Assembly (NCBI GenBank): GCA_913060695.1
Contig: CAJXUA010000017.1
Span: 1-64,000, forward strand
Direction of reading: 5' to 3'
DNA from: an uncultured Gammaproteobacteria bacterium
Lineage (GTDB): Bacteria > Pseudomonadota > Gammaproteobacteria > Pseudomonadales > Pseudohongiellaceae
Length of the DNA: 64,000 nucleotides
Positions 12,894 through 34,600 of the stretch are shown piece by piece. Numbering within the stretch: the first letter of the stretch is position 1; the number at the start of each line of letters is the position of its first letter. Position numbers and translations under genes: made by a program. The notes under the pieces are model-generated. The model was not told the DNA's origin and searched no databases. It worked only from the letters and a program-made list of their open reading frames with translations.

Positions 12894-12924
12894 CATCACC
12901 TCGTCATAATTTTTATTGTCATAC

Positions 12925-14052: not shown

Positions 14053-14072
14053 TGCACTCCAAATGTTTAACG

Positions 14073-16178: not shown

Positions 16179-16262
16179 AAGACCTCTTTCGAAAACGAGA
16201 TTATCAACTAGTGGATTTGGCACTACTTCGAAGATGACATCCGTTTGCCGAGAACAGCTCTT

Positions 16263-16847: not shown

Positions 16848-17049
16848 TCCCCTTCTCCCTCGCCAGTGCCCCTAGCGCTGAGGCACTAGAATCGCAAAGA
16901 ATAGGGCGCACCGCCAGTAAAACATCATCTACAAGCCCTGCAATCTAGGCTAAGTGACTGAACTGTAAGTGATTGAATCAATGCGTGGAGAATACTGGCA
17001 GATTAAGAGCCAGCACTTTATAATACGCGGCCCGCAAGGGGCTGCTATA

Positions 17050-17126
17050 GGGCCTATAGCTCAGTTGGTTAGAGCAACGGACTCATAATCCGTTGGTCCC
17101 TGGTTCGAGTCCAGGTGGGCCCACCA
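17050..17126 (+). tRNA. tRNA with CAU anticodon, probably tRNA-Ile2
   Basis: 77 bases with encoded CCA. Acceptor stem GGGCCTA pairs with TGGGCCC; D arm contains AGCTCAGTTGGTTAGAGC; the anticodon stem ACGGA/TCCGT encloses loop CTCATAA with anticodon CAT at 34-36; T arm GTTCGAGTCC. CAU is read by both elongator Met and Ile2 (lysidine-modified). The TTGGTC variable region and G/C-rich acceptor look more like Ile2 than the GGGGTC of elongator Met. The 3' 46 bases are the left attachment site of the island. Confidence 0.95.
17081..17126 (+). repeat. attL: 46-bp direct repeat in tRNA 3' end
   Basis: From the anticodon (actcataatcc) through CCA, identical over 46 bases to 31049-31094. Integration by a tyrosine recombinase at a tRNA 3' end leaves exactly this pattern and regenerates the tRNA gene on the left. 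Confidence 0.93.
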
Positions 17127-17186
17127 TTTTATGCATTTAAATCAATGCGTTATTGTAATCGAACGTTCCAATAACGCATATTTTTT

Positions 17187-17228
17187 GCTTACACACCGCT
17201 TACACACTCTTTTTTGCTGCTTACACAC
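17187..17228 (+). promoter_or_regulatory. Putative integrase arm-type sites (3 x GCTTACACAC)
   Basis: Three copies of GCTTACACAC within 42 bases, 60 bases inside attL. A matching GCTTACACAC plus a CCTACACAC lie at 30971-30992, about 57 bases inside attR. Paired short direct repeats flanking both core sites are typical of tyrosine-integrase arm sites; the assignment is inference. Confidence 0.6.
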
Positions 17229-17610
17229 TTTTTGGGGACTCAAGCCTGCGTTTCTCCAAAGGCCCGGAACACGTGGCTTACAGCCTTTATGATTGCATTG
17301 AACTCAGCAGAACAGGCTATTCCCGACTATGAGCTGCCGCGTCTACGTGACTAATTGTGCATCAGGACTTGCTGGTTCCTGGGCTAACAACCGTGGCTGT
17401 TGCGACGTGAATAGCTCCCCAACCATGATCTGGTTTAATGATAGGCATTTACACAAAATTTAATACTGTCTCGGAACGACCTCCAACGCCAAGTCTCGAC
17501 TTACTAACACCGAAAATGAAATTACTAGGCTTTAAAATTCGAAGCCGGCAAAACCTATCGCACTTTACTTCGAGGCAAGAATCGCGGAGCTTACAAATAT
17601 GTAATCGGAA

Positions 17611-17644
17611 TGTCATCTTTCTGACAGCCAGGCTTCCGTACAAT
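17611..17644 (+). promoter_or_regulatory. Putative metal-regulated promoter of copA
   Basis: Palindrome TGTCA-N6-TGACA (17611-17626) followed by a -10-like TACAAT at 17639-17644, with no good -35. A dyad in place of the -35 is what a CopR/CusR-type activator would use. About 200 bases of leader separate it from the copA start. Inference only; no copRS genes occur in the window. Confidence 0.4.
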
Positions 17645-17845
17645 AGCTTCCAAAATCGTATGCGCCACATGGGGATGATGTGGCGGACTAAAGTTTACTC
17701 ACGCAGTTCTCGTCTAGGCTGAGAATATAATTGGGCTGTGATTTTTCGAATTGCTCCATTTTCGAGCATACACGTCACCGCTCCGTCATTCTGGATCATT
17801 CTACTTGCCAGAAAAACACTGATTAGAAAGTCAAAGGAAACCGCA

Positions 17846-19645
17846 ATGCCAAGTAACTATTCAAACTCTAGGCGTCAATTTCTGCGACGTGCCGGCATGG
17901 CCGGTACATTAATAGGCATGAGCCCTCTAGTACCCGCATTCGCCGCGCAACCAACGGGTCTTGGAGCTGAGCCCCCATATACTCCCGTAGACCTCAGCAT
18001 TTCCCGTCAACTCCTTGATATCGGCGGGCAACTAGGCGATACCGTCACGATTAGCGGTTCTATCCCTGGACCGCTAATCCGCCTAAAAGAAGGTCAAGAT
18101 GCTGTAATTCGTGTAAGTAATCTTCTGAATGAAACCACCTCCATTCATTGGCATGGCTTGTTGGTACCCCCCGAGATGGATGGCGTACCCGGTGTTAGCT
18201 TTGCTGGCATCCAGCCAGGTGAAACGTTTCAATACGAATTTCCAGTTAAACAAAGCGGCACGTATTGGTATCACAGTCATTCTGGATTGCAGGAACAACA
18301 GGGGCACTATGGGCCGCTGATCATAGACCCCGTTGCGCCAGAGCCATTTAGCTATGATCGTGAATTCGTAGTAATGCTGTCCGATTGGACATTCGAAGAT
18401 CCAATGAGCGTGCTTAGGAAACTAAAAAAACAGAGCGATTATTACAATTATCAACGACGGACGGTACCGGAGTTATTTAACGACGCGAAGCGTAACGGCT
18501 GGGGTAGCACGATTCGAGAACGTCTGGTCTGGGCACGATCGCGCATGGCCCCGACAGACATCGCCGATATCAGCGGCGCCACCTATACTTATCTCATGAA
18601 CGGAATGGCTCCAAATTCCAACTGGACAGGATTGTTTCGACCCGGAGAACGGCTACGGCTGCGATTCATTAACGGTGCGACTATGAGCTATTTCGATGTA
18701 CGCATACCGGGACTGAAGATGACTGTTGTTCAGGCAGACGGCCAGAACATCCAACCGGTGTCTGTCGATGAATTTCGAATTAGTCCTGCGGAGACTTACG
18801 ACGTTCTGGTCGAACCAGACAATAATGAAGCTTACACAATTTTTGCAGCATCTATGGATCGCAGCGGCTACGCACGTGGCACACTGGCAACAAGCACCGG
18901 ACTCGAGGCAGCAATACCCGCGCTGGGCAGTCGACCTGTACGAACAATGAAAGACATGGGAATGGGGGCCGCCGCGATGGCAGGCATGGCTCCAACAGCG
19001 AATGCCAGCGCTTCGACTATGCCTATGCCTATGAAAAACGATGCAACCCAGATGCCCTCGGGCAACAATACTATGTCTATGTCTCCATCGCCTGTGAAGC
19101 ACGGCACTGATCATCACGGCAAAGGCAATACGATGGTCGCGGAGTTTCCTAGTAACCGCATGAGCGAGCCTGGAGATGGATTGGAAAACAATGGCCGTCG
19201 CGTGCTCACATATTCCGACTTACGGAGCTTCTCGCCCATTCCCGAGCAACGAGAACCGGAACGCGAAGTGGAATTACATCTAACAGGTGTTATGGACCGG
19301 TACATGTGGTCGTTCGACGGGAAAAAGTTTTCCGAGGTCGATGGCCCAATCCAATTTAGGTATGGCGAGCGCCTCCGTCTGGTACTGGTCAACGACACCA
19401 TGATGGAACACCCAATCCATTTACACGGCATGTGGCTGGAACTCGAGAACGGTGCCAACGAGTATCGCCCGCGAAAGCACACACTGAATGTTAAACCTGG
19501 CGAACGACTTTCCGCATTAGTTAATGCTGACGTACTCGGCAATTGGGCCTTTCACTGTCACCTGCTCTATCACATGGATATGGGGATGTTTCGAGTGGTC
19601 TCCGTGACCAATGATGCAGTTCTTACGGAGAAAAGTCATGGATAA
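17846..19645 (+). CDS. copA: CopA-type multicopper oxidase
   Basis: 599 residues from the ATG at 17846 with AAAGGA upstream; a GTG 108 bases earlier adds a non-signal sequence. Tat signal S-R-R-Q-F-L-R-R at 8-15. All copper-site motifs are present: HWHG, YWYHSHSG, HPIHLHGMW and FHCHLLYHMDMGM with the T1 Met axial region. A Met-rich segment (about 355-415, MKDMGMGAAAMAGMAP, TMPMPMKN, TMSMS) fits copper binding. In this family the enzyme oxidises Cu(I) in the periplasm and gives copper tolerance. Overlaps copB by 8 bases. Confidence 0.93.
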   Translation: MPSNYSNSRRQFLRRAGMAGTLIGMSPLVPAFAAQPTGLGAEPPYTPVDLSISRQLLDIGGQLGDTVTISGSIPGPLIRLKEGQDAVIRVSNLLNETTSIHWHGLLVPPEMDGVPGVSFAGIQPGETFQYEFPVKQSGTYWYHSHSGLQEQQGHYGPLIIDPVAPEPFSYDREFVVMLSDWTFEDPMSVLRKLKKQSDYYNYQRRTVPELFNDAKRNGWGSTIRERLVWARSRMAPTDIADISGATYTYLMNGMAPNSNWTGLFRPGERLRLRFINGATMSYFDVRIPGLKMTVVQADGQNIQPVSVDEFRISPAETYDVLVEPDNNEAYTIFAASMDRSGYARGTLATSTGLEAAIPALGSRPVRTMKDMGMGAAAMAGMAPTANASASTMPMPMKNDATQMPSGNNTMSMSPSPVKHGTDHHGKGNTMVAEFPSNRMSEPGDGLENNGRRVLTYSDLRSFSPIPEQREPEREVELHLTGVMDRYMWSFDGKKFSEVDGPIQFRYGERLRLVLVNDTMMEHPIHLHGMWLELENGANEYRPRKHTLNVKPGERLSALVNADVLGNWAFHCHLLYHMDMGMFRVVSVTNDAVLTEKSHG

Positions 19646-20402
19646 GCGGGCCCTAACACCTTTGCAATTGATTCACATCGTACTCGGAAGTCTGTTCGTG
19701 GGTCTCAATCCCTCCGCATTTGCTGCGGAACCCGGCTGGCCAGAACCTGTAGACGACAACCTGTCAGTGGGAATGATACTTGCGGATCAGTTTGAATACC
19801 GCGACAACGATGGTGCAGATACTCTGCGCTGGGACATGCAAGGATGGCAAGGAACAGATACCAACAAACTATGGATGAAGTTCGAAGGTAATGATGAAAC
19901 ATCAGCATCTGGAGGGGAATTGGAACTGCAAGCGCTCTATAGCCGCATGGTAGCGCCGTTCTGGGATTTCCAAGTTGGGCTGCGCCATGACCGTGTATAT
20001 GGATCCGGCCCCAATCAGGATCGGAGCTTCGCCGTACTAGGCTTCCAAGGGTTGGCGCCCTATCGATTCGAAGTTGAGCCCGCCCTGTTTCTCAGCGAAG
20101 ATGGGGACGTATCTGCGAGACTCGTAGGAACTTACGACCTACTATTTTCTCAGCGTCTCATACTACAACCAAGGTTCGAGACCAATATTGCGGCCAGCGC
20201 GTCACCAAAGTTCGGTGTAGGCAGCGGATTGAACGACGTACAACTTGGCCTGAGATTACGTTATGAGATTCGCAGAGAATTCGCTCCCTATATAGGCGTT
20301 AGTCGACAACACCGTTTTGGAAAGACGGCTGATCTGATGCGCGCGGATGGGGGAGACGTTGATAATTTCGCTGTCGTTGCCGGTTTTAGAATCTGGTTCT
20401 AG
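19638..20402 (+). CDS. copB: CopB-type outer-membrane copper-resistance protein
   Basis: 254 residues from the ATG at 19638, after ACGGAGAAA and overlapping the end of copA. Signal peptide ends P-S-A-F-A-A. The mature protein is a beta-barrel pattern with CopB landmarks: MILADQFEYRDN, MQGWQGTDTNKLWMKFEG, FWDFQVGLRHD and a C-terminal FAVVAGFRIWF. It lacks the long Met/His-rich N-terminal repeat of some CopB proteins. It acts in the outer membrane with CopA. Confidence 0.92.
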   Translation: MDKRALTPLQLIHIVLGSLFVGLNPSAFAAEPGWPEPVDDNLSVGMILADQFEYRDNDGADTLRWDMQGWQGTDTNKLWMKFEGNDETSASGGELELQALYSRMVAPFWDFQVGLRHDRVYGSGPNQDRSFAVLGFQGLAPYRFEVEPALFLSEDGDVSARLVGTYDLLFSQRLILQPRFETNIAASASPKFGVGSGLNDVQLGLRLRYEIRREFAPYIGVSRQHRFGKTADLMRADGGDVDNFAVVAGFRIWF

Positions 20403-20447
20403 TGATAGAATCTCAAACATTTAAAAGTCATAAAGGAACTTTTCACA

Positions 20448-20921
20448 ATGCTACCGATTGAACAGATCCATCCACTTGTCGTGCATTTCCCGATTGTTTT
20501 CGTATTGATGCTTGCAGCGTTCGACTGTGTCGTCGTTTCCCGAGGCTCCGCGATCAGCGGTCGTACAGCTATAGCCAATATCTCTACCGGCCTTGCCTTT
20601 GGCGCAGGTATTGCCGCTGCGCTCGCTTTTCTGTTTGGCGACCGCGCGCTCGATGTTGCGCTTGCTAAAGGCACTCCACTCGACGTGCTGGAACTCCATG
20701 AAGAGCTAGGTACTGCAACTGCGGCAGCTCTGGCTGTATGGGGCCTCGTTCGTGCTGTTATTTGGTGGCGAAATATATCGCTATCGCGCAGTTTGTGCTG
20801 GGCCATTGTAGCAATCGAACTCGCGCTTGCTGCATTGATCGTTACAACTGCCTTCTTTGGCGGCCAACTTGTGTACGAATTTGGGGTAGGAATAGCTTCG
20901 AGCGCGCGGTCGCTGCGATAG
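20448..20921 (+). CDS. DUF2231 membrane protein
   Basis: 157 residues with four hydrophobic helices (about 12-30, 45-65, 85-108, 120-142). Begins with the DUF2231 signature I-H-P-L-V-V-H-F-P-I and has H-E-E-L-G in the third segment. Such proteins often accompany copper or other metal-resistance genes, and some homologues look haem-linked. AAAGGAA lies 9 bases before the ATG. Lies 45 bases after copB in the same direction, so it is probably the third gene of the copper cassette. Confidence 0.85.
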   Translation: MLPIEQIHPLVVHFPIVFVLMLAAFDCVVVSRGSAISGRTAIANISTGLAFGAGIAAALAFLFGDRALDVALAKGTPLDVLELHEELGTATAAALAVWGLVRAVIWWRNISLSRSLCWAIVAIELALAALIVTTAFFGGQLVYEFGVGIASSARSLR

Positions 20922-20996
20922 CTGCGATAGCTGCAGGAATTTATCCTGGCGGTGTATCGCTTTCAAGTTCATGCACACAAGAGGGTACTAATGTAA

Positions 20997-22373
20997 TGAA
21001 CCATCCCCACCCCTGCTAGGCATTTGCATTCTTTCTGCTTAGCACCCAAGTTGAAGTCTTTAACCCGGGAATGGAGATTGACATGACAATCAGTGTACTA
21101 GGTATCGATATTGCAAAAAACACCTTTCAACTTCACGGCACAGACCGCGCCGGTAATGCAGTTCTTAAGCAGCGCCTACCGAGAAACAAGCTTGCAGCCT
21201 ATGTGGCGAACTTGCCGCAATGCCTGGTTGTCATGGAATCCTGTGGTGGCGCCAATTATTGGGCAAGAGTTTTTCAACGAAGTGGTCATTCAGTAAAATT
21301 GATCAGCCCTCAATTCGTGAAGCCCTTTGTCAAAACCAACAAAAATGATGCGAACGATGCCCAGGCGATAGTAGAGGCAGCAAGTAGGCCCTCTATGAAC
21401 TTCGTTCCCATCAAACAGGTTGAACAACAAGATATTCAATCGATTCATAGAGTCCGCAGTCGAGTCGTTAAAAATAGAACCGCATTGATCAATGAAATCA
21501 GAGGATTGTGCTTAGAGTATGGGATTATCGTTTCTCCAGGCGCGGCAAAGGTTAAACGATCTCTGTGCTCAATTATTGGCGACGCTACAACCGAATTTAC
21601 CTAGTCCTCACGAGAATGCATGAAAGATCTTTATGATGAGCTCACAGAGCTTGAAGCCAGATTAAAGAAGTTGAACGTAAAGGTACGGCAACTCTGTCAG
21701 CACAATGAAACTTGCCGCCGCTTACTGAAAATACCGGGTGTCGGAGAATTAACTGCAACGGCTGTTGTTGCCGCCGTGCCAAATGCTAACGAATTCAAAA
21801 ATGGCCGCCATATGTCAGCTTGGTTGGGCCTGGTTCCCCGACAATCATCTAGCGGTGACAAACAGGTCTTGCTCGGCATTAGTAAGCGAGGCGACAGGTA
21901 CTTACGGACCCTCCTGATCCATGGTGCAAGAGCGGCATTAAGTCACTACAAGAAAACAGAGACGGGCTATGGACGTTGGTTAGTTGAAAGGAAAGCGACA
22001 CTTAGCTTTAACAAAGCGGCTGTTGCGTTGGCTAACAAGAATGCACGGATAATATGGTCCTTGCTTCGCACAGGGGAAGAATTTAATAGTGATGTTCAAA
22101 TGGCTGCTGCCTGATACTCAATATCGAGTGGCTTCTTTAATAAAAGAAAAAATATCCCAAGTTTGCTGTAGTTGATTTCAATGATGGCTAATAGGTCAAA
22201 CCAGCTCTTCTAGAACCTGAAACTTGTCACGGCCCTAAGAGGCCATGGTACTGATGAGGCAGAAGAGTGCGAATTTACATCAGGGCACAAGCTTTGCGTG
22301 GAAGCCGAATATATGACCGCAACTTAGACGTATGGCAACAATTGAAAATCGACTTGCAAAAGGGGATGGTTCA
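20997..22373 (+). mobile_element. IS110/IS1111-type insertion sequence, transposase broken
   Basis: About 1.4 kb bounded by the inverted pair tgaaccatcccc (20997-21008) and ggggatggttca (22362-22373), as in IS1111-group elements with subterminal repeats. It encloses one DEDD-type transposase interrupted by a TAG. Exact ends are uncertain because this group makes no target duplication and its repeats lie inside the ends. Confidence 0.8.
21083..22114 (+). pseudogene. IS110-family transposase with in-frame amber codon
   Basis: Read through, the product is about 343 residues, full length for IS110. The N-terminal DEDD RuvC-like domain has GIDIAKNTF and NDANDAQAI; the C-terminal Transposase_20 domain has IPGVGELTATAVVA, MSAWLGLVPRQ and KRGDRYLRTLLIHGARA. 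A TAG at 21602-21604 interrupts it and both halves stay in the same frame, so a single substitution explains the break. The downstream part could restart at the ATG at 21620 but would lack the catalytic domain. Confidence 0.88.
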
Positions 22374-22748
22374 TATATGACAAGTTAATTCTTCAATGCA
22401 GAGCAAATCCGCGTCAATCTCGCTCTATATCGCCTCCGCTTTTTTCAAGACACCACCCATGCTTCCGATTGTCCATTTAAACGGACATCGTTGGATAACG
22501 CCGATCTAGAAAATTTAGTGCTCACACACAAGTTAAGTTCGAGCGGCGCCACCCCATCTTCAAAGCCCGACAAAATCCACTGCATTTCTAAGCTTATCAA
22601 CCGATACATCTATGTAACGCTTTGCCGCCAAAGCTTTGAGCGCACCCTACTACTCTCACTTCTGAATCACTCAGTATCCCAAATAAGCTGTCAGGCAACC
22701 TGTTATCAAAAACAGCTTACCGATTGAAAGGTAGCAGACTGAAGCATT
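22374..22748. other. Non-coding stretch after the insertion sequence
   Basis: About 375 bp. It opens with tgacaagttaattct (22377-22391), which matches the left end of the GGTACTGACAAGTTAA element family at 34532-34546. The open frame 22491-22727 (plus) has no ribosome site or protein-like composition and is not called. Confidence 0.4.
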
Positions 22749-22994
22749 CTAATGCCCTACTGGAAAAATGCCTTTTTCAACAGCCCTGATATTTTCTTCT
22801 GCCTTTTTTAGCATTGCGTCTACACTAACGTTAAGATAGTTCTTTGATTTAGGGAATCCGTTCAATGCTGCTGCTGGGATGTCGTTTCGAAACGACAATC
22901 CAACGAAAGGCAATGCTCTAACCTGTCACGCATACCCCTCAGACCATTCAGTATATCCATCTTCTCTGATAGGATGATGGGCAGCGCAATCCAT
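22749..22994 (-). pseudogene. Small protein-like reading frame with in-frame TGA
   Basis: On the minus strand an ATG at 22994 opens MDCAAHHPIREDGYTEWSEGYA, which meets a TGA at 22928-22926. The same frame then continues 58 codons (...LPFVGLSFRNDIPAAALNG..., ...KKAEENIRAVEKGIFPVGH) to TAG at 22749. The sequence composition looks like a real small protein of about 81 residues. Family not recognised. Either a nonsense pseudogene or a sequence error. Confidence 0.4.
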
Positions 22995-23021
22995 TAGCTT
23001 TTAGATAGAGAGTTATTCGGC

Positions 23022-23789
23022 ATGAACAATAATAAATATCTACTATATGTTTCGCTTCTCTATTTTAAAATCCTATTAGCCACTCCAGCCTATAATAGAT
23101 ATTGTCAGGCAAAAATTGCCAATGATGAATTCGCGGAGAAAGCGCTTTTAGATCAACACCCCAACCTAGAAAAGATATGGTTGTTTTGGGGGGATATATA
23201 TAATTTTGAGAAAAACCCCAATGAGGTGAAATACTTCACAAAGTGGTTTGATCAAAATCAGCATAAGTTCTGGGACGTCACTTTTAGTAGAGTAAGACTA
23301 GTCAGAGAAGGGTCCCTAATTAGGGCAAAAAGAGGAGACATCTATTGCACTATACCTAAAGGGATTGATGCACATATGATATCTCACTTATTCAGGCGAA
23401 CAGCAAGCCAGATAAAATCCGCAGCAAACAAAATGGGCGGAGATTATGTGCTTTCTCTCAATAAAGACAATAAAAGCTACACACCTCTAAAAACTCGTCA
23501 ATACGAACGAGCTGTAACTGTACTCTACTGGCGAAATTACTTGGGCCTCAGCCCCAAAGAGATCATTTTGAAAGCATATAAGTGGAAGAGTGTTGAATGG
23601 GATAAGTTTAGGATAAAAGTTGATAAGTACCTCAAGATTAACCGCAAGAAGAAACTTGAAGACGTTAATTTTGTTGACCTCCAAACAATAGTAAAAGACA
23701 TAGACAGACTCCGCATCCAGGGTGTAACCATCTCCAATAGCATACTCAATGATGACTTCACATTTCCAGCCTTAGCTAGACCCTTCTAG
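23022..23789 (+). CDS. Hypothetical island protein, 255 residues
   Basis: Not recognised. A hydrophobic start (YLLYVSLLYFKILLATPAYNRY) is followed by W- and F-rich segments (IWLFWGDIYNF, YFTKWFDQNQHKFWDVTF) and a basic, probably helical C-terminal half (AYKWKSVEWDKFRIKVDKYLKINRKKK). Basic charge and the repeated aromatic pattern resemble uncharacterised proteins carried by integrative elements. Base composition is clearly AT-richer than the flanking chromosome. First gene of a rightward group ending at the terminator at 26757. Confidence 0.7.
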   Translation: MNNNKYLLYVSLLYFKILLATPAYNRYCQAKIANDEFAEKALLDQHPNLEKIWLFWGDIYNFEKNPNEVKYFTKWFDQNQHKFWDVTFSRVRLVREGSLIRAKRGDIYCTIPKGIDAHMISHLFRRTASQIKSAANKMGGDYVLSLNKDNKSYTPLKTRQYERAVTVLYWRNYLGLSPKEIILKAYKWKSVEWDKFRIKVDKYLKINRKKKLEDVNFVDLQTIVKDIDRLRIQGVTISNSILNDDFTFPALARPF

Positions 23790-24034
23790 AACTCACGACA
23801 CTTTTTCCCCGATTTCGGCAATTTTTTTGTCGCGTACGCTCCTGCCTGACTTCTGTAGACTTTCCCTCGTTGACGGCAATTACTATCGCCTGCCTTGCAT
23901 GCGACTCAGTACGCTCAACACGCTCTTTAACAGTCTAATTTTACAACCACAAGATACATTTGCATGTAACAAAGATGCATATGTTGCTTTCAGCGGCATA
24001 CCCAACACACTAACTCACAAAACGGAGTACAAAA

Positions 24035-24580
24035 ATGCTAACTAATCGTCTAATCAACTCAAAATCAACCACTGCCCAAGTAGACTTAGTTTCTAAAAGT
24101 CGCGTCTTCGCTCGAAAAATTATTAATAACCTTAATAACCCTGACAAGTTGCTTGCCTACGCCGCCAGAATTTACGAAATCAGCCAACAGCATCCAGCAG
24201 CCAACTCACTCCAACGCGAAGCAGAGTTTGCAACCCAAAAAGCTATCCATATCCAAAATCAACCAGAAAATGTTGCTACTCAGGTCATTTTCGACGGGAT
24301 AAAGTTTTTCAAAAAGAATGGAAAACGTTTTAGCCCTCGCCTATTCGCTATGTATAACCGTTATGAAAGCTGGACAAATGTACACGTCCGCTTACTAACA
24401 AAGGGCATTGGTGGAAAGAATTTTCAATGGTTGCGTGATAGCAACATGCTTCACCTTACTAGTGAGTGGTTTGTTGCTACTCATGCCCGCCACCTTGCTT
24501 CGCCTGAGCAACTCAATGAGCTTGACGCACTTCTGTCAAGCTCCGGCAGTAACCAATCAACTCTTCGTTTGGCAGCGTAA
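24035..24580 (+). CDS. Hypothetical island protein, 181 residues
   Basis: Not recognised. Predominantly helical and basic, with no signal peptide or membrane segment; central segment ESWTNVHVRLLTKGIGGKNFQWLRDS. ACGGAG stands 9 bases before the ATG. It is 4 bases upstream of the next small gene, and the spacing suggests one transcript through to 26679. A TTG-initiated frame just upstream (23827-24045) is judged spurious. Confidence 0.7.
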   Translation: MLTNRLINSKSTTAQVDLVSKSRVFARKIINNLNNPDKLLAYAARIYEISQQHPAANSLQREAEFATQKAIHIQNQPENVATQVIFDGIKFFKKNGKRFSPRLFAMYNRYESWTNVHVRLLTKGIGGKNFQWLRDSNMLHLTSEWFVATHARHLASPEQLNELDALLSSSGSNQSTLRLAA

Positions 24581-24584
24581 TCAA

Positions 24585-24827
24585 ATGGAAGGTAGTAAGA
24601 AAGTATCTCTTACCCAAAAGCACATAAAACACGGCATTCAGTTCTTTGAAACCAACAAGCCAGATAAAGGCGCTGAAGTTCGCTGCACACGATGTGACTT
24701 ATTTTTGTGGTGGGCCAGCGACAGCGAAACTTCCGACTGGCTAAGCTTTGGAAATCGCCTTAAATGCAAGCCAGCAACAAAACCCGTACTACAGCTCGTA
24801 TGTGACAACACAAGGGGGGAAACGTGA
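24585..24827 (+). CDS. Small zinc-ribbon-like protein, 80 residues
   Basis: Starts at the ATG at 24585, 5 bases after the previous stop, giving MEGSKKVSLTQKH. It contains V-R-C-T-R-C near 33-36 and two further Cys (about 58 and 73), enough for a metal-binding ribbon. The stop overlaps the start of the next gene by 4 bases. Basic and short; may bind nucleic acid, by inference. Confidence 0.6.
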   Translation: MEGSKKVSLTQKHIKHGIQFFETNKPDKGAEVRCTRCDLFLWWASDSETSDWLSFGNRLKCKPATKPVLQLVCDNTRGET

Positions 24828-25006
24828 ATACAGACAAACACCGTAATCATAAAGTTACTGTTCGCATTGTAACTACGCCATCGCCTCATAAGTACGAAAT
24901 CTTCTGCATCAAATGCAAGAAGCACGTCCAGTGGACTACTCAAGCAATGTACGACGCTCACATAGCCCTTGAACAAGACGGGCAACCAAATACCGTTGTC
25001 GCATAA
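24824..25006 (+). CDS. Small CxxC protein, 60 residues
   Basis: GTG start overlapping the preceding stop (GTGA), with GGGGGGA just upstream. Contains C-I-K-C followed by K-K-H-V-Q-W, plus further His, suggesting a half zinc ribbon. Its coupling to the 80-residue CxxC protein suggests the two may work together. Function unknown. Confidence 0.6.
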   Translation: MNTDKHRNHKVTVRIVTTPSPHKYEIFCIKCKKHVQWTTQAMYDAHIALEQDGQPNTVVA

Positions 25007-25105
25007 AGCGACAATCTAACGAATCACTCGCACAAAACCTAATCGTCCGCTCGCTTGCGAGTGTGTGGCTGCGGATAGCTTTGCCTCAAAAATGGAGAAA
25101 TAACT

Positions 25106-25957
25106 ATGTTGCCTACAAACACTGACCCGCAAATCACATCAACTCAAACCCAATCCCACTTCATTAAGGAAAGCTCTATGAATATGCCACTACCTACCAG
25201 CGAACCAATTGTAGATGCCAATGCCCATACAATTGTGTTGCGCAACAATAAAATCGAAATTGAGACCTCTCTCAATAACGTCAAACAGATTGCCACCCAC
25301 TGGTACAAAACCAGTTACAGAACGCTTTATATCATCTTAGGACAATGCTATGAGCTGTATTACTTAATAGAAGAAGCTCCAACTGATGACAGAGATACTT
25401 ATAAAGAGCAAGTCAAAAACTCCTACGAGTCACTGAAGGGCGCACAAGGGGCTAAAAACCTACGAAGCAGAATTGTTTCAGTAGTCTTTAACTTTTCTGA
25501 GTTGGATAGGAAGGTGCGTAGCCGTTATGCCACTGTGCTAACGCGTGCCTTCAATCATGCAGATAAGCCCACTGACTCCGCTTCATTCATTACCTGGCTA
25601 GAGGAGCAAGGGGGTATTGTGGCCGCACTCAGCAAGAAAAATGGAGATAAGGTTACTAACAAGACTCCACAGATCGAAATAAACTCTAAAATTCGCTCAC
25701 TGCCTGTAAAAGCACGCGTTGCATTACCCAACAGCGGAAATCGTTTTGTAGTGCTTCTAGCGCAAGGCGTGAACAGCAGTACCGTAGATATACTTTATCA
25801 ATTTGAGGACGATACCCTGTGTGAAAGTATAGCTACCCGCGCATTCAAAGCCGTAGAGAAAGGCGATGACAGCAATGATAAAAAATCTCCTGAATGTGTC
25901 ATTGCGTCCTTCGAGAAGGAATTATCAGGCACTGAAACAAGTGAGGGCTTAGTTTAA
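25106..25957 (+). CDS. Hypothetical protein coupled to AAA+ ATPase
   Basis: 283 residues, not recognised. The ATG at 25106 has GGAG upstream; an ATG at 25178 with AAGGA is an alternative. A central helical region (QIATHWYKTSYRTLYIILGQCYELYYL) is rich in aromatic residues and is followed by basic helices. The stop overlaps the ATPase start (TAATG), so the two are translationally coupled and probably act as partners. A role in element DNA replication or maintenance is inference from the partner only. Confidence 0.7.
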   Translation: MLPTNTDPQITSTQTQSHFIKESSMNMPLPTSEPIVDANAHTIVLRNNKIEIETSLNNVKQIATHWYKTSYRTLYIILGQCYELYYLIEEAPTDDRDTYKEQVKNSYESLKGAQGAKNLRSRIVSVVFNFSELDRKVRSRYATVLTRAFNHADKPTDSASFITWLEEQGGIVAALSKKNGDKVTNKTPQIEINSKIRSLPVKARVALPNSGNRFVVLLAQGVNSSTVDILYQFEDDTLCESIATRAFKAVEKGDDSNDKKSPECVIASFEKELSGTETSEGLV

Positions 25958-26679
25958 TGCTACCTAGCAACCTGAGTGAGGTGGCATTTACTAACACTAG
26001 TGAAGCCACCTATGTCCAACGTATAGTGGGAGGGGAAGTGCGCTTCCCCTCCCACTCCAAAAGCTGTTTTCTACTTTATGGAAAATATGGGTCCGGCAAG
26101 ACGACGCTGGCTCACATGCTGCCCACATTACTTGAGCACCAAAATGCTGAGACTAGCGAACGTCAAGACAACGATTGGCAATACAACTACCGCAGTGATG
26201 CGACAAGTGTGACTCCAGCCAATAGTGGAAAACCAGCATTGCTTCCAGCCAACTTCAACATCATTGACTGTGGCTCACATCACAGTAACGCAGCAATCAG
26301 TATCATTCAGGACATTGAGAAAAAAAGCCGGAGCGATCTCAGCATGGTGCTTCGAGCTGGGCGGTTTAATCACTTTCTGATAGATGAACTTGATTGCTGG
26401 GGCGAACCAGCTCAAGCCAAGCTAAAGGGCCTGATTACTTCTGCCCCTATATGGAATGTCTTCTATATAACCACTAACAGCAAAGGCAAAATTGATGAAG
26501 GGATCATTAGCCGAAGTATCAAGATCGAGTTAAATGGCAGGGACCAAAAGTTCTACCTAGAAGCAGTCAAAAAGCACTTTCCTCACATAACAAGTTATAG
26601 CGAAAAACAGTTATGCGAAATTATAAATGCCTGCGATTGTGACTGGCGGCAAGTGGAGGACATGATGAACAGACTATAA
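25957..26679 (+). CDS. AAA+ ATPase, clamp-loader-like
   Basis: 240 residues. Walker A G-K-Y-G-S-G-K-T-T at 42-50, Walker B F-L-I-D-E-L-D at 140-146, a sensor-1-like T-T-N-S in FYITTNSKGKIDEG and an arginine-finger-like S-R-S in IISRSIKIEL. The C-terminal helices (YLEAVKKHFP, NACDCDWRQVEDMMNRL) resemble the lid domain of clamp-loader and RuvB-like ATPases. The acidic residue order I-D-E-L-D suits DNA-acting AAA+ proteins. Last gene before a strong terminator. Likely loads or remodels a replication or recombination complex; the target is unknown. Confidence 0.8.
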   Translation: MLPSNLSEVAFTNTSEATYVQRIVGGEVRFPSHSKSCFLLYGKYGSGKTTLAHMLPTLLEHQNAETSERQDNDWQYNYRSDATSVTPANSGKPALLPANFNIIDCGSHHSNAAISIIQDIEKKSRSDLSMVLRAGRFNHFLIDELDCWGEPAQAKLKGLITSAPIWNVFYITTNSKGKIDEGIISRSIKIELNGRDQKFYLEAVKKHFPHITSYSEKQLCEIINACDCDWRQVEDMMNRL

Positions 26680-26756
26680 TCCCTCTTCACTCGTTGCTTC
26701 ATTGTTTTAATCCGATATCTGGTGTCCAGTAAGAGATAATCTTCATCTAGCGTTAC

Positions 26757-26783
26757 AAAAGGGCAGTTTATTCTGCCCTTTTT
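26757..26783 (+). terminator. Rho-independent terminator
   Basis: AAAAGGGCAG, a six-base loop, CTGCCC and a run of T: a 10-bp-class hairpin followed by TTTTTATTATT. It ends the rightward unit 23022-26679, and since its stem is flanked by A and T runs it could also work leftward. Confidence 0.9.
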
Positions 26784-26859
26784 ATTATTCGTTCACGAGA
26801 GATGTTACGGAGCAACGAATACCTCAGGATTGAAGATTTTCAAGAAGGTGCGCAATAAG

Positions 26860-27177
26860 CTAACTCAAGTTTCCCGTCGCCCTTCTTTCTATCTCTTCAA
26901 GCACCTCATCTGCCAAGCCACTCATAAACCTTTGTCTTTTCTTATAGTGAGCACCATTCCTTGTGCTCACATCCTCAGACATTTCAAGCCATATATCGCT
27001 ATAGCGTCGTAAATTACCGTATAGGCTCAACAAGGCATTATTGCTTATGTCTGTGTTGTTATATCTGCACACGAACCAGTAATTCCTGTCCTTGCTCAAA
27101 TACTCCCTGCTGAACTTGCTCTTGCTTAATCTGTTATCAAAATCTTTGAGTTGTTCGTATATTTTGTCTACTACCAC
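26860..27177 (-). CDS. Hypothetical protein, 105 residues
   Basis: Short, charged, helical protein without signal or membrane segment. Features include DRNYWFVCRYNNTDIS and MSGLADEVLEEIERRATG. Not recognised. It follows the 110-residue gene by 5 bases, so the two form a leftward pair facing the terminator at 26757. Low-GC composition is shared with the rest of the island. Confidence 0.6.
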   Translation of the reverse strand: MVVDKIYEQLKDFDNRLSKSKFSREYLSKDRNYWFVCRYNNTDISNNALLSLYGNLRRYSDIWLEMSEDVSTRNGAHYKKRQRFMSGLADEVLEEIERRATGNLS

Positions 27178-27182
27178 TTCCC

Positions 27183-27515
27183 TTATAACCTCCGTGTTGA
27201 ATTCGCCAATTCAATATCTGCTTTGTACCTTTCCAATATATTCATTGCTTCTGCAAACATACTTGCCGTATCCAGCCATCCGTCCATGTCAATAAGTGAC
27301 GAATCAATACAGCTGTACCTAGCTGCTTCCTTTCCTAGTGAGCGAATGAAAACATCATTCAGGCTCAACTCGTCAATCCATCTACGGCTAAATTCAGTTG
27401 GTTTACCTCTGTTATGCCTCTCAATAATGCTTATGGCAATTTCACGTATGCTAGGCTTTCTTCCCTCTATTAATTCATATAATTTCATATCCCTTATATT
27501 TATCTTTTCAGGCAT
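27183..27515 (-). CDS. Hypothetical protein, 110 residues
   Basis: Not recognised. Starts MPEKINIRDMKLYELIEGRKPS; helical, no transmembrane segment. The pattern S-I-R-E-I-A-I-S-I-I-E-R could be a short helix-turn-helix-like stretch but is not convincing. Paired with the 105-residue gene downstream and about 110 bases from the HUH-like gene upstream. Confidence 0.6.
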   Translation of the reverse strand: MPEKINIRDMKLYELIEGRKPSIREIAISIIERHNRGKPTEFSRRWIDELSLNDVFIRSLGKEAARYSCIDSSLIDMDGWLDTASMFAEAMNILERYKADIELANSTRRL

Positions 27516-27628
27516 GCTCTATCTGTGGAATTAAAGCAGAACCAAGTAATATCATTGATTGTGATTATTCCGACAACACTCTAGCTACACATAGTTAAAT
27601 GTGGCGCTGAGATAAGATACGTTTAGCT

Positions 27629-28144
27629 TTATTGTTTATTGCTATGCTTACGAATAAAACTGCTGCGCAAATCAATAACATCTTTATTGTTAATAATCTG
27701 CCTAGCTATATCTTTTGTGTTGTACGCGCACACTGCTTTATTGTCTCGTATCTCGCTGTTGATACGCTGCACTAGGTATTCACTAGCTCTGTGTGCTTCA
27801 GAGTTATTCAGCGCATACCAAGCACTTACAATAAGCTCTGTTACTTCTTGCTCTGTGTGATTGCCAAATTTCTTTACGAGTATGTGAGCATGCGGTTTTT
27901 GCTTCTCCTCAATTGCTACAATGCGCTCTATCCTACAAACCTTTTTGTACTTCTCACGCTTCTCATAGGTGTATTCACTGCACTCCAACTGGTAAAACAG
28001 CTTACTTAGCAGCTTACTAAATGCCTCGTGGTATAAATCGTCAGATTGAGAGTTGAGTACATATACATAGTCAGCACCAAATTGCTCACAGTACTTCGCA
28101 TATGCTTCCTGCGTTGCTTTCGCTTGAGTAAATAGATTTGTCAT
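27629..28144 (-). CDS. HUH-endonuclease-like protein (possible Rep or relaxase)
   Basis: 171 residues. P-H85-A-H87-I-L-V is a hydrophobic-flanked HUH motif, preceded by a beta-like strand (RIERIVAIEE) and followed by a helix. A candidate catalytic Tyr lies 54 residues later in A-Y141-N-T-K144-D-I, and the Y-x-x-K spacing is that of rolling-circle initiators. The upstream ADYVYVL could be motif I. The enzyme class nicks ssDNA and links to it through Tyr. It is shorter than most Rep proteins, so it may be a minimal domain or only superficially similar. Confidence 0.5.
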   Translation of the reverse strand: MTNLFTQAKATQEAYAKYCEQFGADYVYVLNSQSDDLYHEAFSKLLSKLFYQLECSEYTYEKREKYKKVCRIERIVAIEEKQKPHAHILVKKFGNHTEQEVTELIVSAWYALNNSEAHRASEYLVQRINSEIRDNKAVCAYNTKDIARQIINNKDVIDLRSSFIRKHSNKQ

Positions 28145-28474
28145 ACATCTATTTATCTAACTGCTAAATTTCTACAGCCAAACTGGGTTAAAGCAGCTAA
28201 CCCCCTTCCCGCACCCGTTCAATATGTATGATTCTTTATAATTCCACACATTCCCCTCCAATCTCACATCAAATCAATGAGTTAACGTCAGCACCTTCTT
28301 CGATCGTTTTTCACAATGTATGGATATATCGTCGAACACTACAAAAGCACACATTTACGGTGAATTTGGTGGATAAACGATGGATTTTGAGTGAAGAGGA
28401 GCTGCAGGAGCTGCTCTTGGTGAAAACAGTACGCATAGGCGTGCGAAAAACGTGCATTGATGAGGAGATAGAGG

Positions 28475-29062
28475 ATGAAACAAGCGAAAGTACTGAATCA
28501 GAGCGAAATCAAGCGATTGATGCGCGTCACAAGCACGACAAAGCACGCTAGCAGAAACAAAGTAGTAATACTGCTGAGCTATCTAGCTGGGCTTAGAGCT
28601 TGTGAGATTGCGTCACTGCGCATAGGTGACGTTATGTCGTTTCAAACGGACATAGTGGAGGCTAAAACCGAGATAGTGCTTCGCAGCTGGCAAACCAAAG
28701 GAAGCAAGGCTCAAACAGTGATTGTGGGTACGCAGCTACGCAGTGAGCTGGAATCATACCTACGGGGGATAAGCACAGCTGCTATAGATACTAATGCACC
28801 TCTTATACGCTCTCAGAAAGGCAGCGCATTTAGCAGTCAAACCATCCAAAACCTATTCCGTACCCTGTACGCGGCGGCAAACGTAGAGCATGCAAGCAGC
28901 CACAGCGGCAGACGCACGTTCATCACCAATCTCAGCGAGAAAGGAGTAAGTGTACGTGTCATTCAGGAGCTTGCGCGTCATAGCAGCATGGTAACGACAC
29001 AGCGTTATATAGATGTGAGCGTGGATAAGCTGCGGAATGCTACGGATTTGGTGGCTATCTAA
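28475..29062 (+). CDS. Tyrosine recombinase, catalytic domain only
   Basis: 195 residues. The tyrosine-recombinase set is complete: R41 in AGLRACEIA, K75 in TKGSK, H143-S-G-R146, H169 in ELARHSS and nucleophile Y178 in TTQRYIDV. The N-terminal core-binding domain of XerC/D or phage integrases is missing; size and layout resemble FimB/FimE. TGAGGAG and GAGG precede the ATG. Distinct from the 450-residue integrase. It may invert a DNA segment, act as an excision partner, or be a relic of another element. Confidence 0.85.
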   Translation: MKQAKVLNQSEIKRLMRVTSTTKHASRNKVVILLSYLAGLRACEIASLRIGDVMSFQTDIVEAKTEIVLRSWQTKGSKAQTVIVGTQLRSELESYLRGISTAAIDTNAPLIRSQKGSAFSSQTIQNLFRTLYAAANVEHASSHSGRRTFITNLSEKGVSVRVIQELARHSSMVTTQRYIDVSVDKLRNATDLVAI

Positions 29063-29079
29063 AACGCAAGGAAACGAGT

Positions 29080-29376
29080 ATGAGAAGTAAATTTGTAGCA
29101 GCTATATTCTTCCTTATTTGGGGAGTAGCATATTTTGGTTGGGACTGGGGTGGTTGGGGCGCATTACTCTTTGCGGCTTTCTGCACAGGTGGCATAGCAA
29201 GCTTATTCAGAATGGGAATCACCAATTCATCTCAACCTAAAAATATGAAATCACGCGGCTCAATTTACTCCAACAGGAACATCATGGGGAAAGTTTGTAA
29301 GAACACAGCATGTGGGTTTCAAAACGGATGGGCACCTTTCATATGCAAAAGGTGCGGTAGATTCTTGGGAGTGTAA
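29080..29376 (+). CDS. Small membrane protein with C-terminal zinc ribbon
   Basis: 98 residues: two hydrophobic N-terminal segments (about 5-22 and 25-42) then a C-terminal ribbon with C-K-N-T-A-C and C-K-R-C, four Cys in all. Starts 17 bases after the recombinase stop with AAGGAAACG upstream, so probably cotranscribed with it. Not recognised; membrane anchoring with a cytoplasmic ribbon is inferred. Confidence 0.6.
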   Translation: MRSKFVAAIFFLIWGVAYFGWDWGGWGALLFAAFCTGGIASLFRMGITNSSQPKNMKSRGSIYSNRNIMGKVCKNTACGFQNGWAPFICKRCGRFLGV

Positions 29377-29541
29377 GTCTCAAATACAGCCCTATTTGAC
29401 CACTTCTCATAATCCTCAGGCGCTGTTTAACCTCAATAGCTGCGTGACCTATTCCCCTCTCTATTCTTACCTTACAATCTTTCCAATTTATCGGGTTCTA
29501 AGCCAAAGCATTTTAATTGCCTAAAATACGCGTACCGACCT

Positions 29542-30894
29542 TTATCCTTTCTTTGCCTTATAAGCCCCATCAACATTCCCTAAGCTTCGAAGTAACTCTC
29601 CTACTTTCTCGCCTCGTAGCTGCTCTTTGGCCTCCTTTACCTGCAAATGGCTATAGTGCTTCTCGATCATCTGTACACTCGTTCCCATATGCTTGGCCAA
29701 GGTGTGTATTGCTGTGCCCTCAAGTGTCAGCCGCAATGTGGCATATGTATGTCTTAGGCTATAGAACACATGCTTGTCACCAGTCTTCGTATCAACCAGC
29801 AAGTTGTGATCCTCTAAATACTTCTCAAACAATTTCTGGAAGCTTGTCGGCTCACTGCCATCCTTGAGCCTAAATACATAGTCCTTTTGCTTTGGTGTAA
29901 CAAAATCTTCAAGCCAGAACTTGCCGCTCTTATTGACTTCATAATTCCGCTCAGCGATTCGCTCCAATGCGGCTATAGTCAAGCCATTGCCTAATATGGT
30001 GCGGGTACCAGTCTTACCCGAGACGGTAAGCCAGCATTCTCTCAGCAGCCTTACTTCGCGTATTGGTTCACCAGTAGGCTCAAACACTTCTTGCGTACCA
30101 TCTTCATTAGCAGCAACAGTCTCACCCTTATCAATAGTCTCTCTAGTCAGCTCTATCTGATTCCATTTAAGATTCATCAGCTCAGCGCCGGGTCTGGCCC
30201 CAGTATCTAGTAACACATACACATAGTCTTTCAAGAGCAGGGCCAGCTCCTTACTCTTCTGGTGTTTCCTTTTAACTGTCCATGCGTCAAAGTTAGCCAA
30301 TATGGCCTGTATTTCTTTCTGCTCAAACGCTGGTCGCCTATTACTTACATTTCCTTTCTCAAGCTTCAGTATTGGTCGCACCGCTTCTGTCAGGAACTTA
30401 CGTGTAATAGCTTCATCGAAGATACGGTTAAGTGCAGCATTGTGAGTTTGTAATGTGCTGCGGCTTGGTTCCTTGCCCATCTGTTCAATACGCCACAGAT
30501 CAAACTCATCAAGCAATTTGTAATCAATGCTTGTGGCGTTGTAATTGCCAAAGAATGGGATTAGATACTTGTTGATGACGGTCAGATAGTCTTTGTACTT
30601 TCGAAGGCCACGATCATTCTTAGCTTCGTCTTCTAGGCGCTTGATAGCGAGCTTGGCAATATCTCTAAACTTGCGAGTCAGTACGGGCATACCCATTCGC
30701 TTTAAAGCTTGAGCATCGTAGAGCAACTCTAAGGCTTTCTTCTTGGCCTTATCTAGGTCAGCTTCACCAGTGCTTTTGCGCTGCCATGCCCCATCAACTT
30801 TAAAGCGACATTGCCACAATCGGCTACGGCCTCGCTTGTAGATGATGAGTTCGTTATCTATTATGGTGTGAGTTGTATCGACGGGTTTAGGCAT
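29542..30894 (-). CDS. int: Island tyrosine integrase
   Basis: 450 residues with an N-terminal arm-binding-like region (residues 10-60, RLWQCRFKVDGAWQRKSTG), a core-binding SAM-like domain (about 75-180) and a catalytic domain. Catalytic residues: R234 in TGARPGAEL, box II Y378-S-L-R381-H382 (Tyr at the usual first His, common in island integrases), H402 in AKHMGTS and Y414 in EKHYSHL. It lies 155 bases inside attR and is oriented inward. It should catalyse integration into and excision from the tRNA 3' end; no excisionase is obvious. Confidence 0.93.
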   Translation of the reverse strand: MPKPVDTTHTIIDNELIIYKRGRSRLWQCRFKVDGAWQRKSTGEADLDKAKKKALELLYDAQALKRMGMPVLTRKFRDIAKLAIKRLEDEAKNDRGLRKYKDYLTVINKYLIPFFGNYNATSIDYKLLDEFDLWRIEQMGKEPSRSTLQTHNAALNRIFDEAITRKFLTEAVRPILKLEKGNVSNRRPAFEQKEIQAILANFDAWTVKRKHQKSKELALLLKDYVYVLLDTGARPGAELMNLKWNQIELTRETIDKGETVAANEDGTQEVFEPTGEPIREVRLLRECWLTVSGKTGTRTILGNGLTIAALERIAERNYEVNKSGKFWLEDFVTPKQKDYVFRLKDGSEPTSFQKLFEKYLEDHNLLVDTKTGDKHVFYSLRHTYATLRLTLEGTAIHTLAKHMGTSVQMIEKHYSHLQVKEAKEQLRGEKVGELLRSLGNVDGAYKAKKG

Positions 30895-30970
30895 AGTGTG
30901 TTGGCGCCCCTATCAGGCTATACACCTGTATCGGTGTGCAAGCGTTACTTTATTGGTTAAAGTATACGTT

Positions 30971-30992
30971 GCTTACACACTTTCCTACACAC
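30971..30992 (+). promoter_or_regulatory. Putative integrase arm-type site at island right end
   Basis: GCTTACACAC at 30971-30980 and CCTACACAC at 30984-30992 repeat the boxes near attL. They lie between the int start and attR, so they could also serve as operator for int autoregulation. Inference. Confidence 0.55.
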
Positions 30993-31048
30993 TTAAATTT
31001 ATTTCCTATAACATACTGATTTTAATAGGCATTAATTTAGTGCAATCA

Positions 31049-31094
31049 ACTCATAATCCGTTGGTCCCTGGTTCGAGTCCAGGTGGGCCCACCA
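31049..31094 (+). repeat. attR: 46-bp copy of tRNA 3' end
   Basis: Identical to 17081-17126 from actcataatcc to CCA. The 5' half of the tRNA is absent here, so this is the right attachment site and not a second gene. Confidence 0.93.
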
Positions 31095-31536
31095 CTTCCT
31101 TCGCTTCGCTCAGTCGCGCTAGACCTCACTGAACTAATCCAGCCAAAAATCACAGATTTTTGTCGTTCGACTGCGCGCAAAGCTCGCGCTTTGCAAACTG
31201 CGCTTGCCTCACCCAGGTGGGCCCACCAAATTCCTTTCGATTTCATCGAGTTACGATTCGGACAACGGACTATGAGGTTTTATAGTCCGTTTGCCTCACC
31301 ATAATCCCCCGAAAAATCACCTCCGCACCACAAAACTCCGCACCTGCGAACGAGGATGCTGAGATTGAATTTCTCGTCGAGGAAGTGGCAATGGGGCGGG
31401 GGAAAGGTCACTATGTGCAAAGAGTTTAGAGACAAATGAACAAGCTAATTAGTTATGAACGAAATAACAGCGATTCAATGCACCTGCGGTCAGGCAAACT
31501 AAACCAAACAAGGCTAGAATTGCTCTAGCTTTTAAT
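31095..31536. other. Post-island non-coding region with further tRNA scars and hairpins
   Basis: 442 bp without a gene. Contains a second short tRNA-end copy (31213-31228), a hairpin AAAAATC/GATTTTT (31145-31161), a GCAAAG/CTTTGC hairpin near 31180-31197, and a dyad acggactat/atagtccgt at 31264-31289 that begins like the tRNA anticodon arm (caacggact). This last could be the original tRNA terminator or another decayed tRNA piece. Confidence 0.5.
31213..31228 (+). repeat. Second partial tRNA 3'-end copy (16 bp)
   Basis: ccaggtgggcccacca repeats the terminal 16 bases of the tRNA and of attR, 118 bases beyond attR. Likely scar of an older or neighbouring integration. Confidence 0.7.
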
Positions 31537-34516: not shown

Positions 34517-34528
34517 GTGGTATTGACG

Positions 34529-34546
34529 GTACTGACAAGTTAATTC
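34529..34546 (+). repeat. GGTACTGACAAGTTAA element, left end only
   Basis: gtactgacaagttaattc just after the diguanylate cyclase stop matches the terminal repeat of elements at 35857-36121 and 44762-44917. No matching right end lies close by, so the element is truncated or interrupted by the repeat at 34601. Confidence 0.65.
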
Positions 34547-34600
34547 TATTCTTTTAGTTCGAAGTGTTATTTGAGACGCAACCAACACTCCCGCTTTAAA

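Follow-up and report, generated by a model that had tools for sequence, protein, structure and literature searches.

The DNA inserted in the tRNA-CAU gene of a window of 64,000 bases (the whole stretch analyzed here) raises the question of whether it is an island in which unrelated genes have gathered beside an integrase, or an element with a core of its own. The stretch 17127–31094 is, with good confidence, a mobile element that was integrated in the 3′ half of tRNA-CAU by lambda-type recombination, with a family core consisting of a large tyrosine integrase (IntL), a short tyrosine recombinase, and a gene pair for the protein P2 and an AAA+ ATPase (P2–AAA), and with copper genes as exchangeable cargo. 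On this evidence, it would represent a new family of tRNA-targeted integrative elements, of which the integration chemistry is known and the core is undescribed. An earlier note on this DNA had placed an island of about 14 kb with exact 46-bp att repeats in tRNA-CAU, and that proposal is borne out by the exact repeats, by motifs common to both ends, and by a junction in the related genome G012 (see section A Hotspot for Islands at tRNA-CAU).

The tRNA Target and the Ends of the Island

The only tRNA gene in the window has the anticodon CAU and is labeled Met by ARAGORN; by comparison with E. coli ileX, we take it to be probably tRNA-Ile2. The target, the repeats, and the end motifs are as follows.

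17050–17126, plus strand: tRNA-CAU gene, the integration target (ARAGORN)
17081–17126, plus strand: attL core, 46 bp, same as the attR core (repeat search)
31049–31094, plus strand: attR core, exact 46-bp copy (repeat search)
17187–17228, plus strand: three arm-type-like repeats GCTTACACAC (at 17187, 17198, and 17219), just inside the left end
30971–30980, plus strand: fourth arm-type-like repeat GCTTACACAC, inside the right end, with TTACACACTTT common with 17221

The last 46 bases of the tRNA gene are repeated at 31049–31094 with no mismatch, and the similarity extends beyond them to 61 bp at 92% (17069–17129 and 31037–31097). This pair is the sole direct-repeat family reported for 16800–31600 (minimum length 18, seed 12). 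The tRNA target is thus regenerated whole, with the displaced fragment at the opposite end of the island. The tRNA 3′ end has a third copy, in truncated form, at 31211–31228, and the 16-bp end of this copy occurs three times in the window, compared with a mean of 0.00 in 100 shuffles.

The two ends also resemble each other internally. The 10-bp GCTTACACAC has four copies in 64,000 bases, each within about 100 bp of an island end (mean 0.2 and maximum 1 in 20 Markov shuffles of the window), and the inner 150 bp of both ends have seven 9-mers in common, a number equalled by none of 1972 random 150-base pairs. Around a lambda-type integrase, arm-type sites are located near the ends, and the GCTTACACAC repeats near both ends are candidate IntL arm sites.

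Core Proteins of the Island

Four genes between the tRNA-half att repeats form the core.

29542–30894, minus strand: IntL (P0003), 450-aa tyrosine integrase (Phage_integrase and SAM-like domain matches)
28475–29062, plus strand: P0007, 195-aa short tyrosine recombinase with a FimB/XerC-like catalytic domain and catalytic motifs
25106–25957, plus strand: P0002 (P2), 283-aa core protein (independent 11-sequence profile, E=1.7e-12)
25957–26679, plus strand: P0001, 240-aa AAA+ ATPase, clamp-loader type

IntL is the 450-residue tyrosine integrase that had been predicted just inside the right repeat, and its Phage_integrase domain and catalytic residues agree with that prediction. Arg234, Arg381, His382, and Tyr414 are invariant across four aligned integrases, Lys294 is a candidate, and these residues are presumably catalytic; the first His of the HxxR motif is replaced by Tyr in all four. 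The second recombinase gene, for P0007, is located apart from that of IntL and in the opposite orientation. P0007 matches XerC-type models and, more weakly, FimB-type models: it aligns near full length with DNA invertase models of 198 and 200 aa, and over nearly its whole length with the catalytic domains of XerC and XerA. It differs from the FimB/FimE-type and XerC-like proteins in scoring far under the curated cut-offs, and in traveling with an integrase and an AAA pair.

The P2 and AAA genes overlap by a single base, between the stop codon of the former and the start codon of the latter. Scans of family libraries gave no informative match for P2. P0001 has Walker A, Walker B, TTN, and an SRS/SRC-type arginine, and matches PHROG clamp loaders (E=1e-9). 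A profile of three AAA sequences matches, in the Protein Data Bank (PDB), RFC small subunits (7e-12), DnaX (2e-8), and T4 gp44 (1e-5). P0001 therefore resembles these clamp loaders in its AAA+ domain, Walker A and B motifs, and SRC-type arginine, but, to judge from its length of about 240 aa, it fits the two ATPase sub-domains and would have no room for a collar domain.

Recurrence of the Four-Gene Core

In a search of 398 genomes of the phylum, P0001 was found in one other genome, G729, which belongs to the same class and a different family. Compared with the window, its IntL is 36% identical, its short recombinase 40%, its P2 25% (E=2e-6), and its AAA 26%, and the P0002-like gene directly precedes the AAA gene. 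This element spans 26.4 kb, with a tRNA-CAU gene at one border and an exact duplicate of the tRNA 5′ half at the other, and by eye its cargo includes RND-type efflux genes. An AAA profile matched 16 of 274 genomes of the G729 family, including nine strong matches in the genus of G729 (G729 itself included) and one more, G1391, in another genus. The outside set used below consists of 11 loci, namely G729 and 10 loci from eight further genomes (nine genomes, one genus); G1391 (E=1e-32), G1338, and G595 (241 aa, ~5e-13) were left out, and four AAA matches with frames of 363–373 aa were set aside.

With the window proteins as queries, IntL and the short recombinase were detected in all 10 further loci, P2 in three, and AAA in all 10, the last by construction as the loci were chosen by AAA matches. 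A mixed profile detected P2 in 10/10 (weakest 7e-5). Conversely, a profile of the 11 outside P2 sequences detected P0002 with E=1.7e-12 among 793 open reading frames (ORFs), the next window ORF having 6.7. A DUF6641 gene is present in all 11 outside loci and a P4 gene in eight, and no paper on DUF6641 was found in the literature search. Exact direct repeats of 42–60 bp with a tRNA half enclose the core in 6 of the 11 (tRNA-CAU in four, tRNA-Phe in two), as the att repeats do in the window; in G1392a, both copies are halves, with no whole tRNA in the stretch. Cargo varies among the outside loci, the smallest repeat-bounded one being 11.0 kb and containing, by eye, a methyltransferase-like gene. 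The suggestion that this set of genes could constitute an integrative element not yet described is supported, because the four genes that were then unrecognized recur together elsewhere.

Separately, in G1289 (C1 1728998–1751006, L131–L132), a tRNA-Phe gene has displaced copies on both sides, of its 3′ half at a distance of about 11.7 kb and, in the opposite direction, of its 5′ half at about 10.2 kb, as though it were flanked by islands.

Parts of the core are found more widely. The integrase family is rare (5/369 genomes of the class at E<=1e-40, own genome included), and no match to AAA, P2, or the short recombinase accompanies the integrases of G1121, G599, and G928 within the stretch fetched (6.6 to 40 kb). 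Plasmid pAB510d of Azospirillum sp. B510 carries an integrase and a short recombinase together (22% and 45% identical, respectively), and a 560-aa protein of pAB510d is a weak match to the P2 profile (E=0.004). The integrase profile found 11 IMG/VR loci, five of which have the same two genes together; none of the 11 has an AAA match. In two of the IMG/VR loci (L100 and L101, apparent near-copies), the genes for the large integrase and the short recombinase are convergent and about 20 bp apart, a layout that suggests that the two enzymes may work as a pair. In G878, a related integrase and an AAA protein are accompanied by a serine resolvase, and an AAA gene fragment (80%) is located on a 3-kb OM182 contig, from a metagenome-assembled genome, that has no tRNA. 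A class-wide AAA profile matched 24/369 genomes at E<=1e-6; 22 of these, with frames of at least 396 aa, look DnaX-type and were rejected, and the own genome and G878 were kept.

These distributions bear on the simplest alternative, an ordinary tRNA genomic island with a lone phage-type integrase and accreted unrelated genes, to which P2–AAA and the second recombinase would be further cargo. It is consistent with the tRNA hotspot that holds different islands in the genus, with cargo such as copA that is common on plasmids (both described below), and with IntL relatives that have no AAA match (L089, L091, L092, L093, L094, L095, and all 11 IMG/VR loci). However, all four genes recur jointly, among other neighbors, in 11 loci of a different family, and IntL is paired with the short recombinase also in five IMG/VR loci (L100 and L101 being near-copies) and in pAB510d. 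We therefore regard an ordinary island as improbable, and favor an element with a portable core.

Replication of a phage satellite or defective prophage by a phage-like clamp loader would explain the PHROG match of P0001 and the IntL/short-recombinase pairs on IMG/VR contigs, of which L097 has, by eye, terminase- and portal-like ORFs. Against this, no structural, packaging, or lysis family was found in the 10 island proteins scanned with PHROGs, save one chance-level integrase/head-protein match (0.2), and P0001 has no match in 50,697 phage records, nor in IMG/VR by the peptide patterns used. A phage origin is accordingly very unlikely. P0001 likewise has no match in 72,556 plasmid records, and P0002, P0004, and P0006 were not found in IMG/VR. 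Two further leads on the AAA protein were rejected: six plasmid records that match the G729 AAA (P0008; at most about 28% identity) were read as housekeeping clamp-loader or RarA proteins, and a role in defense was dismissed, as the PADLOC matches were confined to AAA domains (best 2.5e-6, TRIP13, for the G729 ATPase), apart from weak ones for the short recombinase.

Other Island Proteins and the Question of Mobilization

Beside the core and the copper genes, the element encodes the following proteins.

23022–23789, plus strand: P0004, 255-aa protein
24035–24580, plus strand: 181-aa protein, no family
26860–27177, minus strand: DUF6626 protein
27183–27515, minus strand: 110-aa protein, no family
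27629–28144, minus strand: P0006, 171-aa protein with H-x-H and YNTK stretches
29080–29376, plus strand: 98-aa protein, no family

A copy of P0004 that is 84% identical adjoins a related integrase (35%) at tRNA-Phe in G012, where the contig then ends. Mixed profiles suggested that P0004 belongs to the P4 family, and this was ruled out by an independent profile of outside P4 proteins, which did not detect it.

P0006 bears on another alternative, an integrative and mobilizable element (IME) that would use a non-canonical rolling-circle-type relaxase and borrow conjugation pores. The H-x-H and YNTK stretches of this 171-aa protein are ones that we take to be HUH-like, and similar small proteins adjoin related integrases in pAB510d and G878. 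By eye, L095:5464–6087 (pAB510d), window 27629–28144, and L080:4735–5469 are alike near related integrases, with IRD..A..YNTK in two and H-x-H in two, and these proteins possibly form a group of rolling-circle-type nickases. Rolling-circle-type relaxases are known in IMEs, according to the accessible text of PMC5704250. On the other side, P0006 has no informative match in Pfam, NCBIfam, or PHROG and no relevant one in PDB, its single-sequence fold is unusable (pLDDT 41.7), the likeness within the trio is not significant by BLAST (E=6.5 and 0.018), and P0006 has no match in the 10 further outside loci. It has no match in phage or plasmid records either, and the pAB510d analogue finds only itself among plasmids. 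No type IV secretion or relaxase gene was recognized among the 20 proteins scanned with Pfam, a result by which an integrative and conjugative element was rejected; for an IME, the HUH-like stretches of P0006 were the only candidate for a relaxase, and no search aimed at oriT was made. The IME explanation is therefore unlikely, if the least so of the alternatives considered here.

The preferred interpretation, a tRNA-targeted element with a four-gene core, has features in common with an IME, namely an integrase, no recognized conjugation apparatus, and a possible rolling-circle-type nickase, and differs in having no recognized relaxase among the proteins scanned and in its AAA pair, which is unmentioned in the accessible text of PMC5704250.

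A Hotspot for Islands at tRNA-CAU

The surroundings of the target were compared among genomes of the same genus, and two further stretches of the window enter this comparison.

31095–31228, no strand: 134-bp stretch ending in the truncated tRNA 3′ end, probably a remnant of another event at the tRNA
31229–34618, no strand: further hotspot DNA with a periplasmic-binding-protein gene and a HAMP-GGDEF gene

G012 has an identical tRNA and a left flank that is 92–94% identical, and from the base directly after its tRNA onward it matches window 31229–31372 (144 bases, 92%); this junction is thus present there in the absence of the copper island. The earlier note had proposed a search for an uninterrupted locus in relatives: the direct joining of the tRNA to the right flank was found, with the reservation that another island follows there. 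A displaced tRNA 3′ half is present in G012 as well, 31 kb on, and sequence shared with the window resumes about 300 bases later, at window position 34619. In G005, a copy of the tRNA 3′ half immediately precedes a shared block (window 34765–35956). The stretch 31229–34618 was not found at the same place in these two genomes, except for its first 144 bases in G012 and a 55-base piece in G005. A further att-like copy is present past the shared block, directly after it in G005 and 12 kb on in G012, and the right border of the hotspot is therefore not firm. Among the genus genomes, the variable region at tRNA-CAU extends from 17127 to at least 34618; within it, 17127–31094 is the copper element and 31095–31228 probably the scar of another event.

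A query of the left flank and the tRNA had matches in 14/14 genomes of the genus (own genome included), several of them only via other tRNAs, and extra copies of the tRNA-CAU 3′ half are present in G012, G005, G011, G013, and G007. Judged from these genomes, the tRNA-CAU 3′ end is a hotspot for islands in the genus. Single-protein searches found no second copy of the island (the whole 14 kb was not searched as DNA).

As for the scar, a stretch similar to 31095–31228 adjoins an att-like copy in G012: window 31042–31211, comprising attR and the 134-bp stretch, is 89% similar to G012:C23 334854–335013, which is about 12 kb past the first displaced att copy of that genome. This likeness suggests stacked insertions and deletions at tRNA-CAU. 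Before the same downstream block, the hotspot DNA differs among window 17127–34618, G012:C23 291306–322909, and G005:C32 19438–39606; by eye, it includes type I restriction-like genes in G012 and a cytosine-methyltransferase-like gene in G005.

Composition and Copper Cargo

The left part of the element carries the copper genes and an insertion sequence.

17738–19645, plus strand: multicopper oxidase (CopA-like), cargo (Pfam)
19611–20402, plus strand: CopB copper resistance protein, cargo (Pfam)
20448–20921, plus strand: DUF2231 membrane protein, cargo (Pfam)
21071–22114, plus strand: IS110-family transposase gene with an in-frame stop (ORFs 21071–21604 and 21620–22114)

The copper-resistance cassette of the earlier note is thus recovered by Pfam as the oxidase, CopB, and DUF2231 genes, and its description of the interior as AT-richer from about 22 kb agrees with a G+C content of 43% in 22200–31094, compared with 49% in 17127–22200 (56% in 1–17049 and 50% in 31229–64000). 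Such oxidases were found in 2941 plasmid records at E<=1e-50, the best of those listed being about 60–62% identical. Because plasmids carry many such oxidases, the copper genes are regarded as ordinary, and copper resistance is taken to be exchangeable cargo. The analysis goes beyond the earlier note in three respects: it shows the copper cassette to be ordinary cargo, the tRNA to be a hotspot for multiple islands, and the variable region to reach further right.

Comparison with Described Elements

Islander-type tRNA islands with lambda-type integrases share with the window element, in the available descriptions, exact tRNA repeats, an intact tRNA, an integrase adjacent to one end, and arm-like repeats; the window element adds a core (the short recombinase and P2–AAA) that recurs between lineages. 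Two other systems resemble it in carrying at least two tyrosine recombinase genes and in the exchangeability of their cargo (PMC5385486; PMC10214605). As their accessible texts describe them, GInts have at one end the ginABCD operon, three genes of which encode recombinase folds (PMC5385486), and strand-biased circularizing elements have an intA-tfp-intB-srap operon at the left end (PMC10214605). Both thus have the recombinase operon at one end, whereas in the window the recombinase genes are apart and the core includes a clamp-loader-type ATPase pair; the word tRNA does not occur in the accessible portion of either text. Membership in either system was ruled out by gene order. No description of the IntL, short recombinase, P2, and AAA core was found among the papers listed in the searched literature on tyrosine-recombinase elements and tRNA islands, from which the subscription literature is mostly absent, and in the accessible text of PMC5644125 the words integrase and tRNA do not occur.

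Proposed Mechanism and Significance

In the proposed mechanism, IntL would recombine the 46-bp core carried by a circular form of the element with its exact counterpart in the tRNA gene, and the tRNA would remain whole, with the displaced half marking the right end, because the recombining cores are identical. The direct repeats near the ends may serve as IntL arm sites, and the element may be excised as a circle. P2–AAA would assist in the replication or maintenance of the circle after excision, possibly together with the HUH-like protein, which would then act as a nickase, and the short recombinase would resolve or rearrange the element or its modules. Transfer would probably be passive, because no conjugation or virion gene was recognized among the proteins scanned.

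Several points weigh against this interpretation. The roles of P2–AAA and the short recombinase are guessed from their families. There is no sign that the window copy excises or moves now, and the island is perhaps old, because the IS110 gene is interrupted and scar DNA lies at the right end. The window also differs from the outside loci: gene order in the window is unlike theirs, DUF6641 has no match in the window stretch searched though present in all 11, window P0004 is missed by the profile of outside P4 proteins, and P0004, P0005, and P0006 have no match in the 10 further loci. Five of the 11 outside loci have no enclosing tRNA repeat within the stretch fetched, and the 5.5-kb contig of G878 has neither P2 nor a short recombinase. 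The core is also rare near the host: AAA was found in 1/144 relatives and P2 in 1/390 genomes of the order, each time the own genome. Finally, G012 is no virgin site, as a different island follows its tRNA.

If the interpretation holds, genes of environmental islands that are mostly written off as cargo would here include four that form a portable core across distantly related bacteria, among them an ATPase whose type is known elsewhere from clamp loading in replication. If P2–AAA serves the excised element, this would be a new route of self-maintenance for a small island with no recognized conjugation genes. The four genes could serve as markers for finding such elements, with copper resistance as cargo here and other cargo elsewhere.

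Palindromes and Boxes

One further feature of the window recurs in related loci.

22881–22896, no strand: perfect 16-bp palindrome GTCGTTTCGAAACGAC

This site is the only genome-wide match to TCGTTT-N(1-2)-AAACGA. The longer form GTCGTTT-N(1-2)-AAACGAC has one perfect copy in the window, one in the tRNA-Phe locus of G012, and one within the L096 integrase gene; a second match in G012, at C22:543, has no family core gene recognized beside it by eye. In G729, eight of nine genome-wide matches to the palindrome core are inside the element. The palindrome is missing from two of the 11 outside loci (G1392c and G1344), and in others it is found also outside the tRNA repeats. As a control, the reversed pattern has four sites in G001 and one in G013. 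A second palindrome in the window, at 28636 with two mismatches, was dismissed as within shuffle expectation.

Nine boxes of about 100 bp, running from the palindrome GTCGTTTTAAACGAC to ATTAGTGCGATCTATTACC, are located between cargo genes in G729 (L057/L082), G1392 (L129–L130), and G1226 (L137–L138); in the window, one palindrome and no box were found. The boxes suggest a further alternative, a cassette-collecting element that IntL would move as a whole into tRNA genes and out of them. Its excised circle would be copied by P2 together with the clamp-loader-type ATPase, its multi-gene cargo modules would be captured and shuffled by the short recombinase at GTCGTTTTAAACGAC boxes, and the window member would be a stripped relative. 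The boxes are like attC sites in being positioned 3′ of genes, and differ from them in having no consistent long hairpin, as only the palindrome stem was consistent in single-strand folding of five boxes. The chance that the family works in this way is slim, and the tRNA-targeted element with exchangeable cargo is preferred. In eight of the nine boxes, the 3′ end of the next minus-strand gene is within about 100 bp, and a similar gene is preceded by the second box in G729 but by the first in G1226.

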